From NCBI GenBank assembly GCA_035640355.1, contig DASQWI010000006.1:124001-188000 (forward strand): a DNA stretch of 64,000 bases. Reading direction: 5' to 3'. The notes beneath the pieces were generated by a model. It searched no databases. It worked only from the letters and a program-made list of their open reading frames with translations, and was not told where the DNA came from. The position numbers were made by a program, and so were the translations under genes. This DNA comes from Actinomycetota bacterium (lineage in GTDB: Bacteria; Actinomycetota; UBA4738; HRBIN12). Positions 52,953-56,701 of the stretch are shown in pieces; within the stretch, counting starts at the first letter, position 1; the number at the start of each line of letters is the position of its first letter.

Positions 52953-52961
52953 GGGAGCGAT

Positions 52962-53070
52962 CCACCGGGGAGCTCGACCGACCGGGCTGAGAGGCCGTCA
53001 GCGCGTTCTTGGGGAGCGCGGGCGACGGCGACCCGACGAACCTGCACCGGGTAATTCCGGCGGAGGGAGG
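52962..53070 (+). ncRNA. TPP riboswitch (THI element)
   Basis: Core consensus segments are present in order: GGGGAGC at 52967-52973, CTGAGAGG at 52987-52994, a variable P3 arm (GCCGTC pairing with GACGGC), then ACCC-GACGAACCTG-CACCGGGTAATTCCGGCG at 53031-53062. The 3' end merges with GGAGGGAGG (53062-53070), the ribosome site of thiE, which points to translational control by thiamine pyrophosphate. Confidence 0.92.
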
Positions 53071-53072
53071 AC

Positions 53073-53708
53073 ATGAGACTCGATCCGCGCTCGCTCTCGG
53101 TCTACGTCGTCACGTCGAGCCGCGGCGCGAGCGGGAATGGTCATCTGGAGATCGCCGCCGCGGCGGTCGCCGGCCGAGCCACAGCGGTTCAGCTCCGGGC
53201 GCCGGAGCTGACGGACGAATCGTTGCTGCCGCTCGCGCGCGAGATCGCCGAAGCATGCCGCGCGGCCGGCGTGCTCTTCGTCGTGAACGACCGCGTCGAG
53301 GTCGCTGCCGCGGTCGGCGCGGGAGCGCACGTCGGCCAGGATGACGATCCAGAAAGAGCGCGGGGTCTTCTCGGGCCCGACGCGGTCCTCGGAGTCAGCG
53401 TCGGCACCGTCGACGACGTCGCGGTCGCCGAACGTGCCGGCGCCGACTACCTAGGGGTGACGGTGTTCTCGACCTCGACCAAGCCGGATGCTCGCCCCAT
53501 CGGGCTCGACGGGCTGAGCCGGATCGTCGCCGCGACGTCCATCCCGGTGGTCGGTATCGGAGGCATCGACGCCGCGAACGCGCGAGACGTCCTCGCCGCT
53601 GGCGCCGCCGGTGTCGCGGTGATCTCCGCCGTCGCCGACGCGGACGACTCCGTCGCCGCAGTAGGCAGCCTGGTCGACGCGGTGAAGCGAGCCGGCGCGA
53701 CGCGATGA
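53073..53708 (+). CDS. thiE: Thiamine-phosphate synthase
   Basis: 211-residue TIM barrel joining the pyrimidine and thiazole phosphates of thiamine. Diagnostic blocks: TAVQLRAPELTDESLL, FVVNDRVEVAAAVGAGAHVGQDD, ADYLGVTVFSTSTKPDA (pyrophosphate loop) and VVGIGGIDAANARDVLAAGA. Under the TPP riboswitch immediately upstream. The stop overlaps the following AIR-synthase gene by four bases. Confidence 0.93.
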   Translation: MRLDPRSLSVYVVTSSRGASGNGHLEIAAAAVAGRATAVQLRAPELTDESLLPLAREIAEACRAAGVLFVVNDRVEVAAAVGAGAHVGQDDDPERARGLLGPDAVLGVSVGTVDDVAVAERAGADYLGVTVFSTSTKPDARPIGLDGLSRIVAATSIPVVGIGGIDAANARDVLAAGAAGVAVISAVADADDSVAAVGSLVDAVKRAGATR

Positions 53709-54778
53709 GCGACCAACGAACGGGCAAGGCGACCGCGGAGCTGTTCGAGCGCGTAATCCTGTCTCGCCTCGGGGCGCGAGATCCGGACGTCTTGGTCGGT
53801 CCCCGCCACGGCGTCGACGTAGGCGTCGTTCGTGTCGCGAACGGTGTCGCCGTGGCGCTCACGGCAGACCCGGTGTTCATCGTGCCCGCGTACGGATGGG
53901 AGCGTGCCGCGTGGTTCGCCGTTCACATCCTCGCTTCCGACGCATCGACGAGTGGTCTCCCGCTCCGGTGGATGGCCGTCGACCTGAACCTGCCCCCCGA
54001 GATCACCGACGACGAGCTCACATCGCTGTGGGATGCGTTCCACCGCGCGTGCGAGGGCATCGGCGTCGCCGTCGTGACGGGCCACACGGCGAGGTACGAC
54101 GGCTGCAACTGGCCGATGGTGGGAGGCGCGGTCTGCATGGCGTCAGGATCGGAAGATCGGTACGTCACGCCGGCGATGGCGCGCGTCGGCGACCGGATCG
54201 TCGTCACCAAGGGCGCCGCGATCGAGGCCACGGCGCTGTTCGCGGCGACGTTCCCGGATCGCCTCGCGGACGGCGTGGGACGCGACATCGTCGAAGCCGG
54301 CGACCGGCTGTTCGAACAGATGACCGTGGTGCCGGAAGCCACGGTCGCGCGCGAGTTCGGCGTTCGCCAGGCGGGCGTCACGTCGATGCACGACGCGACC
54401 GAAGGTGGAGTGGTCGGCGGACTCAGCGAGGTCGCGGCCGCGTCGAACGTCGGGATGCGGGTCGACCTCGCCGCAATTCCCGTCCGGCCTGAGGTGCGTG
54501 CGATCTGCGAGCACACGGGTATGGATCCCTACACCTCGATCTCCGAGGGGACGTTGATCGCGACCGTCGTTCCCCACAAGACGGAGGCGTTCGTGGGCGC
54601 GCTCATCGAATCGGGAGTGGACGCCGCCGACGTCGGTGAGATCCGCCCGCCGTCCGACGGGCGCGTCCTCGTCACGCCCGACGGGGACTCACCGCTGGAG
54701 CACCCGGGCCTCGATCCGTTCTGGGGCGCGTTCGGCAGATGGGCGCGGGAAGCGGCCGGGATCGCCGAATCCGGATAG
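53705..54778 (+). CDS. AIR-synthase-family protein in the thiamine operon
   Basis: 357-residue PurM/HypE/ThiL/SelD-superfamily ATP-binding protein. The N-terminal nucleotide segment LVGPRHGVDVGVVRV is degenerate relative to the GDDAAV of ThiL, HypE and SelD. VALTADPVFIVP, HILASDASTSGLPLRWMAVDL, VVTGHTARYDGC and HDATEGGVVGGLSEVA fit the superfamily. It has no SelD Cys/Sec loop and no HypE C-terminal cysteine. Translational overlap with thiE under a TPP riboswitch makes a thiamine-phosphate kinase role plausible; that is inference. Confidence 0.72.
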   Translation: MSDQRTGKATAELFERVILSRLGARDPDVLVGPRHGVDVGVVRVANGVAVALTADPVFIVPAYGWERAAWFAVHILASDASTSGLPLRWMAVDLNLPPEITDDELTSLWDAFHRACEGIGVAVVTGHTARYDGCNWPMVGGAVCMASGSEDRYVTPAMARVGDRIVVTKGAAIEATALFAATFPDRLADGVGRDIVEAGDRLFEQMTVVPEATVAREFGVRQAGVTSMHDATEGGVVGGLSEVAAASNVGMRVDLAAIPVRPEVRAICEHTGMDPYTSISEGTLIATVVPHKTEAFVGALIESGVDAADVGEIRPPSDGRVLVTPDGDSPLEHPGLDPFWGAFGRWAREAAGIAESG

Positions 54779-54890: not shown

Positions 54891-55802
54891 GTGGACGTGA
54901 TCGCGGTCGGAGACGTGATGCTCGACGTCCGAGTCGAGGCCGGGGCACTGGAGGAGGGCGGCGACGTCCACGGGAAAGTGCTCGTCCGTCCCGGCGGAAG
55001 CGCGTCGAACGTCGCCGTCTGGGCGGCCCACGCCGGCTCGCGAACGCGGATCCACGGCCGGGTGGGAACGGACACCGCGGGTGCGTTGATCCGCGACGAA
55101 CTCATCCGTCACGGCGTCGAGCCGGCGCTCACGGTGGATCCTGAAGCCGACACGGGCACGATGCTCGTCGTGCACGAGCCCGGTGTGCGCTCGATGGTCG
55201 CCGACCGCGGGGCGAACGGCGGACTGTCGCCGCAGGACCTCCCGGACCGGATCCAAGCGACGGCCGTCCTCGTCTCGGGATACACGTTGCTACATGAGCC
55301 GACGTACGAGGCCGCCGCTGCCGCTCTGCACCGTGCCCGGGCGCGCTTCCTAGCGGTCGACGGCGCCTCGTGGCCCATGCTGCGAGACTTCGGCGCCGAC
55401 CGCTTCTTCGAGGCGACCGCGGCCGCCAACGTCCTGTTCGTCAACGAGCGCGAGGCGGAGATCTTGACCGGCCGACGACGGGAATCCGCTGCGGATGCGC
55501 TCTCCGCGAGGTATCCGGTGGTGTGCGTGAAGCTCGCGGAGGCCGGCGCTGTCATGTCGTGGGAGGGTCTGTCGATCCGGCTCGAGGGAATTCCCGCCGA
55601 GGAGCTCGATCCGACGGGCGCAGGCGACGCGTTCGACGGGGTGCTCCTCGCGCAGCTTGCCGCGGGCCGTTCGCCGGGCGATGCGCTGCAGGCCGCGTGC
55701 CGCGCCGGCGCGCAGGTCGCAGAGAGCTATGAGACGTGGCCAACATCCAAGCGTGCCACCGAACGCGAACCCGCACGCGACGCGCCGGCCGACACTCGGT
55801 GA
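54891..55802 (+). CDS. psuK: PfkB-family kinase, probable pseudouridine kinase
   Basis: 303-residue ribokinase-fold kinase. N-terminal VIAVGDVMLDVRVE, the substrate motif RPGGSASNVAVWAAHAG and the catalytic DPTGAGDAFDGVLLAQ anion hole are intact. Coupling by GTGA overlap to a PsuG-type glycosidase suggests pseudouridine as substrate. Other nucleoside or sugar substrates remain possible. The C-terminal 25 residues are charged and disordered. Confidence 0.8.
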   Translation: MDVIAVGDVMLDVRVEAGALEEGGDVHGKVLVRPGGSASNVAVWAAHAGSRTRIHGRVGTDTAGALIRDELIRHGVEPALTVDPEADTGTMLVVHEPGVRSMVADRGANGGLSPQDLPDRIQATAVLVSGYTLLHEPTYEAAAAALHRARARFLAVDGASWPMLRDFGADRFFEATAAANVLFVNEREAEILTGRRRESAADALSARYPVVCVKLAEAGAVMSWEGLSIRLEGIPAEELDPTGAGDAFDGVLLAQLAAGRSPGDALQAACRAGAQVAESYETWPTSKRATEREPARDAPADTR

Positions 55803-56701
55803 GCGAGCTCGTCCTCCCCGCCGAGGAGGTGGAGGATGCGCTGGCGTCAGGACGAGCCGTCGTGGCGCTGGAGACGAGCGTCATCGGGCAGGGGCTACCG
55901 CCGCCGAGGAACATCGAATGCGCCCAACGCATGACCGCCGCGATCCGCGCATCGGGGGCAACTCCGGCGTGGACCGCCGTCGTGGAGAGCGCGGTTCGTG
56001 TCGGACTCACCGATCCGCAGCTCGAGGCGTTCGCCGATCCGGGACGATCGTCGAAGGTCGCTCGGCGCGACATCGCGTTCGCCGTCGCGAACGGGGTCCT
56101 CGGCGCTACGACGGTATCGGCGACGATCTGGGCAGCATCCGAAGTGGGCGTTCGCATCTGTGTCACCGGCGGCATCGGCGGCGTGCACACGCGACGCGGC
56201 GACGTTTCCGCCGATCTCCTCGAGTTGTCTCGAACGAGCGTGCTGCTCGTCTGTTCGGGCCCCAAGTCGATCGTCGACCCGATCGCGACCGCGGAACGGC
56301 TCGATGAGCTCGGCATCGCAACGGTGGGGTATCGAACGGACCTCCTGCCGTTCTTCGTGGTCGCGGCGGCTGATGTCGAGCTAGATCAGCGCGTGGACGA
56401 TGCCGCGGCCGCGTCGCGGCTCGTTCGCGCACAGGAGTCACTCCGCTCGACGGCGGCGATCCTGCTTTGCAACCCCGTCCCCGCCGCTTTCGCACTCGAC
56501 GCGGCGGAGGTCGCGAACGCCGTCCGCGCGTGCGAGGACGACGCCGAACGCGACGGGGTCCGGGGCAAGGCGGTCACGCCGTTCCTGCTGTCGTGCGTGG
56601 CGGACCGAACCGACGGCTCGAGCCTCGAGGCCAACATCGCGCTGCTCGAGTCGAACGCCCGGCTCGCGGGTGAGGTCGCGGTCGCCGCCGCTACGGCCTG
56701 A
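55799..56701 (+). CDS. psuG: Pseudouridine-5'-phosphate glycosidase
   Basis: 300-residue PsuG, splitting pseudouridine 5'-phosphate into uracil and ribose 5-phosphate. Family motifs: VALETSVIGQGLPPPRN, SSKVARRDIAFAVANG (catalytic lysine), TVSATIWAASEVGV, ICVTGGIGGVH and LCNPVPAAFAL. GTG 55799 overlaps the psuK stop; an upstream ATG at 55736 lies inside psuK. It is convergent with the glycosyltransferase gene, their stops nearly touching. Confidence 0.93.
   Translation: MSELVLPAEEVEDALASGRAVVALETSVIGQGLPPPRNIECAQRMTAAIRASGATPAWTAVVESAVRVGLTDPQLEAFADPGRSSKVARRDIAFAVANGVLGATTVSATIWAASEVGVRICVTGGIGGVHTRRGDVSADLLELSRTSVLLVCSGPKSIVDPIATAERLDELGIATVGYRTDLLPFFVVAAADVELDQRVDDAAAASRLVRAQESLRSTAAILLCNPVPAAFALDAAEVANAVRACEDDAERDGVRGKAVTPFLLSCVADRTDGSSLEANIALLESNARLAGEVAVAAATA

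Follow-up and report, generated by a model that had tools for sequence, protein, structure and literature searches.

The window analysed here, a stretch of 64,000 nt, carries on its plus strand a compact run made up of a TPP aptamer, the thiamine phosphate synthase gene thiE, and a gene for an AIRS-superfamily protein (hereafter AIR), as follows.

52956-53085, + strand: TPP riboswitch aptamer (THI element); RF00059 48.5 bits, own model R1 71.9 bits
53060-53071, + strand: purine-rich putative ribosome-binding site of thiE within the aptamer 3' end, from the sequence and the cmscan alignment
53073-53708, + strand: thiE, thiamine phosphate synthase; TIGR00693 166.4 bits (cut-off 145.1), PF02581 176 bits
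53705-54778, + strand: AIR, AIRS-superfamily protein of 357 aa, candidate hydroxyethylthiazole (HET) kinase of thiazole salvage; PF02769 and PF00586

The stop codon of thiE and the start codon of AIR overlap by 4 nt (ATGA). On the 3' side of AIR lie a PfkB-family kinase gene and then a PsuG-like glycosidase gene (window 54891-56701), a pair that, in the loci seen, recurs behind thiE-AIR in close actinobacterial relatives only. The PfkB-family protein passed no NCBIfam cut-off; being a ribokinase-type kinase, it could itself be a thiazole kinase. By analogy, the pair may belong to pseudouridine catabolism.

The aptamer matches the full RF00059 model (1-105), with a long P3 insert and an E-value of 1.2e-8 in a 401-nt search, although it scores under the gathering threshold (54.3), and an Rfam scan of the whole window at that threshold accordingly listed nothing. 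Model R1, with 11 base pairs, was built from nine aptamers, that of the window among them, and was used solely for detection, Rfam serving as the check. The minimum-free-energy fold of the window aptamer was no better than those of shuffled sequences (z -0.94). The original prediction of a TPP riboswitch over thiE is nevertheless borne out by the full-length match, the score of thiE against TIGR00693, and the presence of the same element at orthologous loci. It had also placed the thiE ribosome site in the aptamer 3' end and read this as translational control; the placement agrees with the alignment, and the control is plausible, since the site lies within the aptamer and no terminator-like site was found at the locus.

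AIR exceeds the Pfam cut-offs for both superfamily domains, PF02769 (AIRS_C, 82 bits vs. 23.1) and PF00586 (AIRS, 39.4 vs. 24), in agreement with its earlier assignment to the superfamily of ThiL. No NCBIfam model was matched over its cut-off, the scores being 75.2 bits for ThiL (TIGR01379, cut-off 184.15), 69.1 for HypE (TIGR02124, cut-off 251.6), and 55 for SelD (TIGR00476, cut-off 125); down to E 0.001, PurM was absent from the NCBIfam matches and PF02110 (ThiM) from the Pfam matches. An AF2 model of AIR was obtained with a pLDDT of 93.5 and a pTM of 0.91, and its closest solved structure is HypE (3vys_C; Z 35.3, rmsd 2.8, 322 aligned, 23% identity). The same model gave Z 29.3 with ThiL (3c9t_A; rmsd 2.6, 289 aligned), Z 28.9 with SelD (3u0o_A; rmsd 2.5, 292 aligned), and Z 24.5 with PurM (9k05_A; rmsd 3.5, 306 aligned), and Foldseek agrees on HypE and ThiL as fold relatives. 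AIR is closer to HypE than to ThiL in both fold and profile, and the earlier statement that it lacks HypE features therefore holds only in part, HypE being its closest structural relative.

ThiL shares the AIRS fold and the thiamine pathway with AIR, but its GDDAAV and GGEDYEL motifs, conserved in six ThiL rows, are absent from AIR, which has GPRHGVDVGVV and ISEGTLIAT at those places (matched by motif order, the two sets not being co-aligned). HypE shares the MxDxTxGG motif and carries a C-terminal acceptor cysteine; AIR lacks such a residue, because no Cys follows residue 268. SelD shares the fold and the GHT motif, but its catalytic residue is an N-terminal Cys or Sec, whereas the first Cys of AIR is residue 116. 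PurM (AIR synthetase) has the superfamily fold but is only 13% identical to AIR. ThiM resembles AIR in the proposed reaction and in belonging to TPP-controlled operons alongside thiE, thiD, and tenA, but its fold is of the ribokinase type rather than the AIRS type; as AIR has no PF02110 homology, the comparison with ThiM is one of function only. Overall, AIR is an AIRS-superfamily (PurM/ThiL/HypE/SelD) protein outside every named family.

The AIR family is compact (at least 48% identity in alignment A3, from which L009, with a stop near its 3' end, was omitted), with members from many phyla: Actinobacteria, Chloroflexota including Dehalococcoidia, Sulfobacillus, and several uncultured phyla. 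Its conserved N-terminal motif is GPxHGVDVGIV. The replacement of GDDAAV by GPRHGVDVGVV, as originally described, is therefore real, but it is a family-wide feature and not a local oddity. Eleven residues do not vary across the 100 strict rows (D38, D55, D79, H127, T128, Y131, K169, D230, E233, E281, and D337), including the superfamily acids D38, D55, D79, D230, and E281. Aromatic residues beside these acids are invariant or near-invariant in the strict rows and would suit a ring substrate. Three cysteines, C116, C134, and C268, are near-invariant, with all three present in 92 of the 100 strict rows. The parts of the open-access literature consulted, including sections of PMC12345177, PMC12236431, and PMC2766623, contain no report of the AIR gene or of a HET kinase other than ThiM.

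One scan yielded 180 stretches, 160 of which are relatives, and the best 80 were retained; neighboring genes were called with a home-made codon-scored caller and have approximate starts. In the best 80 of the 160 relatives plus the window, R1 detected 29 TPP elements, one of which (L032) is far from AIR and was left out of the counts; L078, which is partial, was left out of the tree and tallies. Among 20 further loci from 301 Chloroflexota genomes, 14 have a TPP element directly ahead of AIR. Altogether, a TPP riboswitch is linked to AIR in 44 of the 92 rows with a judgeable upstream side, a count that includes the window and more distant relatives, relies for some rows on R1 only, and excludes 12 rows with short upstream DNA. 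Two pairs joined by zero-length branches (L072/L137, from the same genome, and L023/L155) are apparent duplicates, for which neither this tally nor the 100-locus tally used below was corrected.

The Rfam gathering score was passed in 5/19, 16/16, and 8/12 loci of three scans, and the four misses in the last of these (L022, L080, L064, and L016) have their aptamers truncated by contig ends. Outside the window, 28 distinct loci have a TPP riboswitch above the gathering score ahead of AIR or its operon; duplicates (L137, which repeats L072, and G062, whose coordinates are those of G017) were removed from this count and from that of 64 distinct genomes below. The 28 include L033, with its element about 420 nt ahead of AIR, L068, with a methyltransferase gene between the element and AIR, and two more distant AIR relatives (L129 and L131). 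When the presence of the riboswitch is mapped on a 104-row tree, a minimum of 17 changes is required, at least six of them forced by well-supported branches, and the TPP-AIR link therefore recurs in many lineages.

In many loci AIR directly follows the aptamer as the first gene, even where no ThiE is adjacent (L025, L029, L069, L072, L075, and L083). In predicted operons, its partners include ThiE at 31 of 100 loci, ThiD at 7, and TenA at 4. Two operons, AIR-thiD-thiE-tenA (L042) and AIR-tenA-thiE-thiD (L068), have a gene set like that of the S. aureus operon, whose order is given as tenA-thiM-thiD-thiE in the part of PMC2766623 consulted, with AIR in the place of thiM. The flanks of ThiC, Thi4, and ThiL showed no ThiE or ThiD alongside, except for the ThiD gene directly after ThiL in the window genome. 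The recurrent linkage to TPP riboswitches and ThiE makes a stronger case for the originally suggested thiamine role than the window did, and AIR very probably acts in the thiamine pathway under TPP control. We conclude that the TPP regulon has in AIR a new and widespread member built on the AIRS fold.

The window genome (97% complete) encodes ThiE, ThiD, and ThiL, while ThiM, ThiG, Thi4, and ThiC were not found (best matches 20.7, 30.2, and 34.4 bits, and none, respectively). ThiC is absent from all 28 actinobacterial genomes. Among the 21 of these that bear ThiE, AIR occurs in 12/12 without ThiG and in 2/9 with ThiG (Fisher p 0.0003, ignoring kinship), and both ThiG-bearing exceptions (G026 and G056) have a second ThiE beside AIR. 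Of the seven ThiE-less actinobacterial genomes, only G020 has AIR, and its short fetched stretch holds no ThiE either. Across 64 distinct AIR-bearing genomes, a real ThiG is present in 12, Thi4 in 20, and ThiM in 2 (G071 and G083; a partial match of 28.9 bits in a 527-residue frame of G084 was not counted), and 25 have ThiE without ThiG, Thi4, or ThiM. However, ThiG or Thi4 is present in 32 of the 64, and AIR is therefore not tied to absent thiazole synthesis.

In the 301 Chloroflexota genomes, AIR (>440 bits, 27 genomes) and ThiM (E <= 1e-15, 47 genomes) never overlap, compared with an expected overlap of 4.2 (P 0.008, ignoring kinship). This exclusion is weak evidence, because ThiM is likewise absent from all 53 genomes whose sole AIR relatives are distant paralogues (100-291 bits). 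The fetched loci of such paralogues mostly lack a thi link. We also observed, in many Chloroflexota, a remoter class of AIRS paralogues sharing about 28-40% identity with the AIR rows (most of L117-L128 and L133-L136); it is mostly without thi genes or a TPP element, an exception being L129 (TPP-AIR-ThiE, 42%).

It was originally proposed that AIR may perform or replace the last thiamine step, and a canonical thiL elsewhere in the genome was named beforehand as one part of the refutation. Such a gene is present (G000:C17:85357-86340, 308.4 bits vs. a cut-off of 184). Together with the absence of GDDAAV and GGEDYEL from AIR, it led us to reject AIR as the ThiL of this genome. Of 15 AIR-bearing relatives, 13 likewise have a ThiL scoring over the cut-off, and the genomes of the other two are 84% and 74% complete. 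The same holds for 44 of a further 50 genomes that bear AIR; as one genome belongs to both sets, this amounts to 56 of 64 distinct genomes.

The chance is slightly better than even that the AIR family, to which no pathway had been assigned, provides thiazole phosphate under the control of a TPP riboswitch, either as a HET kinase unrelated to ThiM or, in bacteria that have neither ThiG nor Thi4, as a new enzyme forming thiazole with the use of ATP and sulfur. The reading that we prefer, at a probability of roughly 45%, is that AIR is a HET kinase, a ThiM analogue on the AIRS fold, because the operon make-up, the complementarity with ThiG, and the thiazole gap in the window genome fit this role. 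The locus would then be an operon for thiamine salvage that TPP represses. At low TPP, the aptamer would free the ribosome site in its 3' end for translation of thiE, and translation of AIR would follow through the start-stop overlap. AIR would be an ATP-dependent enzyme that phosphorylates HET, and the resulting HET-P would serve as the thiazole substrate for the ThiE encoded in the same operon; AIR would thereby take the place held by ThiM in classical salvage operons. In the window genome, HMP would be converted to HMP-PP by ThiD and HET to HET-P by AIR; ThiE would join the two products to TMP, which the canonical ThiL would convert to TPP.

If this is correct, a conserved family that is unnamed in the libraries searched (the window member exceeds no NCBIfam cut-off) would gain a pathway, and the thiazole gap would be filled in genomes that encode ThiE and ThiL yet otherwise seem incapable of thiamine synthesis. 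This would also alter predictions as to which bacteria of soils and sediments, and which dechlorinating bacteria, depend on others for B1 or its precursors.

Some observations do not sit well with a HET kinase. A ThiE match is absent in 7 of 67 AIR-bearing genomes, including G066 and the clade G102/G104/G109, where such a kinase would be idle unless another TMP synthase exists. These four genomes have ThiL, and their AIR is the sole gene under its TPP riboswitch, a situation better suited to a thiamine kinase that forms TMP from imported thiamine and feeds the canonical ThiL. In addition, in four loci (L151-L154) a TPP riboswitch and AIR are followed by genes for an ABC ATPase, a permease, and a binding protein of the NMT1 type (Pfam run on L152), possibly an importer of a thiamine precursor; this pairing counts against HET phosphorylation and would agree with thiamine uptake. 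The thiamine kinase reading, however, leaves the association of AIR with ThiE-bearing, ThiG-less relatives unexplained, and no AIR ortholog was found in the ThiE-less, ThiL-bearing G008, G015, and G018 (G015 and G018 being incomplete). We therefore consider it rather unlikely.

The substrate generally ascribed to NMT1-type ABC importers is HMP rather than HET, and TPP-AIR-NMT1 transporter operons occur in four ThiD-less genomes (G126, G136, G154, and G172). These operons, the TenA neighbors of AIR, and the presence of ThiD (TIGR00097, E <= 1e-15) in only 36 of 80 AIR-bearing genomes would be in keeping with AIR as an HMP or HMP-P kinase, a ThiD analogue whose chemistry would resemble the monophosphate-to-diphosphate step of ThiL. 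However, most of the ThiD-less AIR genomes have a long ThiE frame, and five of six scanned ThiE proteins, all six from ThiD-less genomes, proved to be ThiD2-ThiE fusions (L202, L203, L218, L220, and L223) that fill the ThiD hole, ThiD2 being described as an HMP-P kinase in the portion of PMC12345177 consulted. In view of these fusions, an HMP-P kinase for ThiD-less Dehalococcoidia was set aside as the leading idea. ThiD is moreover encoded in the AIR operon at seven loci, and a ThiD is present in the window genome, so that a ThiD-like role for AIR appears improbable. One genome (L227/G108) has ThiE without ThiD or a fusion.

The preferred HET kinase also gives no role to C116, C134, and C268, and does not explain why AIR shares an operon with IscS, IscU, or NIL genes at 22 of 100 loci, just one of which (L075) has a TPP riboswitch or thi gene as well in the tally, with L059 and L082 close to joining both. 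The cysteines and these operons, along with MnmA, ThiI-like, and CysE/CysK genes in AIR operons of Dehalococcoidia and others, and HypE and SelD being among the closest folds, would suit a sulfur-activating or new thiazole-forming enzyme, SelD-like and using ATP with sulfide or IscS persulfide, that supplies rather than salvages thiazole. The co-occurrence of AIR with ThiG absence among ThiE-bearing actinobacterial relatives and the presence of IscS near TPP-AIR in L082 and L059 point the same way. By contrast, half of the 64 AIR-bearing genomes already possess ThiG or Thi4. In L195, L197, and L200, Thi4 itself is surrounded by genes of sulfur and cofactor metabolism, and such a neighborhood therefore need not mean sulfur chemistry; the IscS/IscU/NIL neighborhoods of AIR may be cofactor-and-sulfur clusters. 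Sulfur activation or thiazole formation by AIR appears improbable. The neighbor of Thi4 in those three loci is a DUF39 gene of the homocysteine synthesis type, or Thi4 follows MOSC-FdhD-NadA-CutA genes. Finally, a second, divergent ThiL is very improbable, as the shared superfamily, the thiamine operon, and ThiL as the best NCBIfam match (75 bits) are outweighed by a canonical ThiL encoded in this genome and in most other AIR-bearing genomes, the missing ThiL motifs, and the greater nearness to HypE.

Two further gene associations were noted at AIR loci. A SelD-like gene lies directly behind AIR in L030 (9363-10316); its called start leaves out the N-terminal catalytic region, and the gene may be read through an in-frame UGA. 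In addition, a small protein of about 190-197 aa is encoded beside AIR relatives in L131 (5010-5600), L132 (3411-3980), and L070 (3548-4138), forming one cluster in L070/L077, with the L131/L132 proteins similar by eye.
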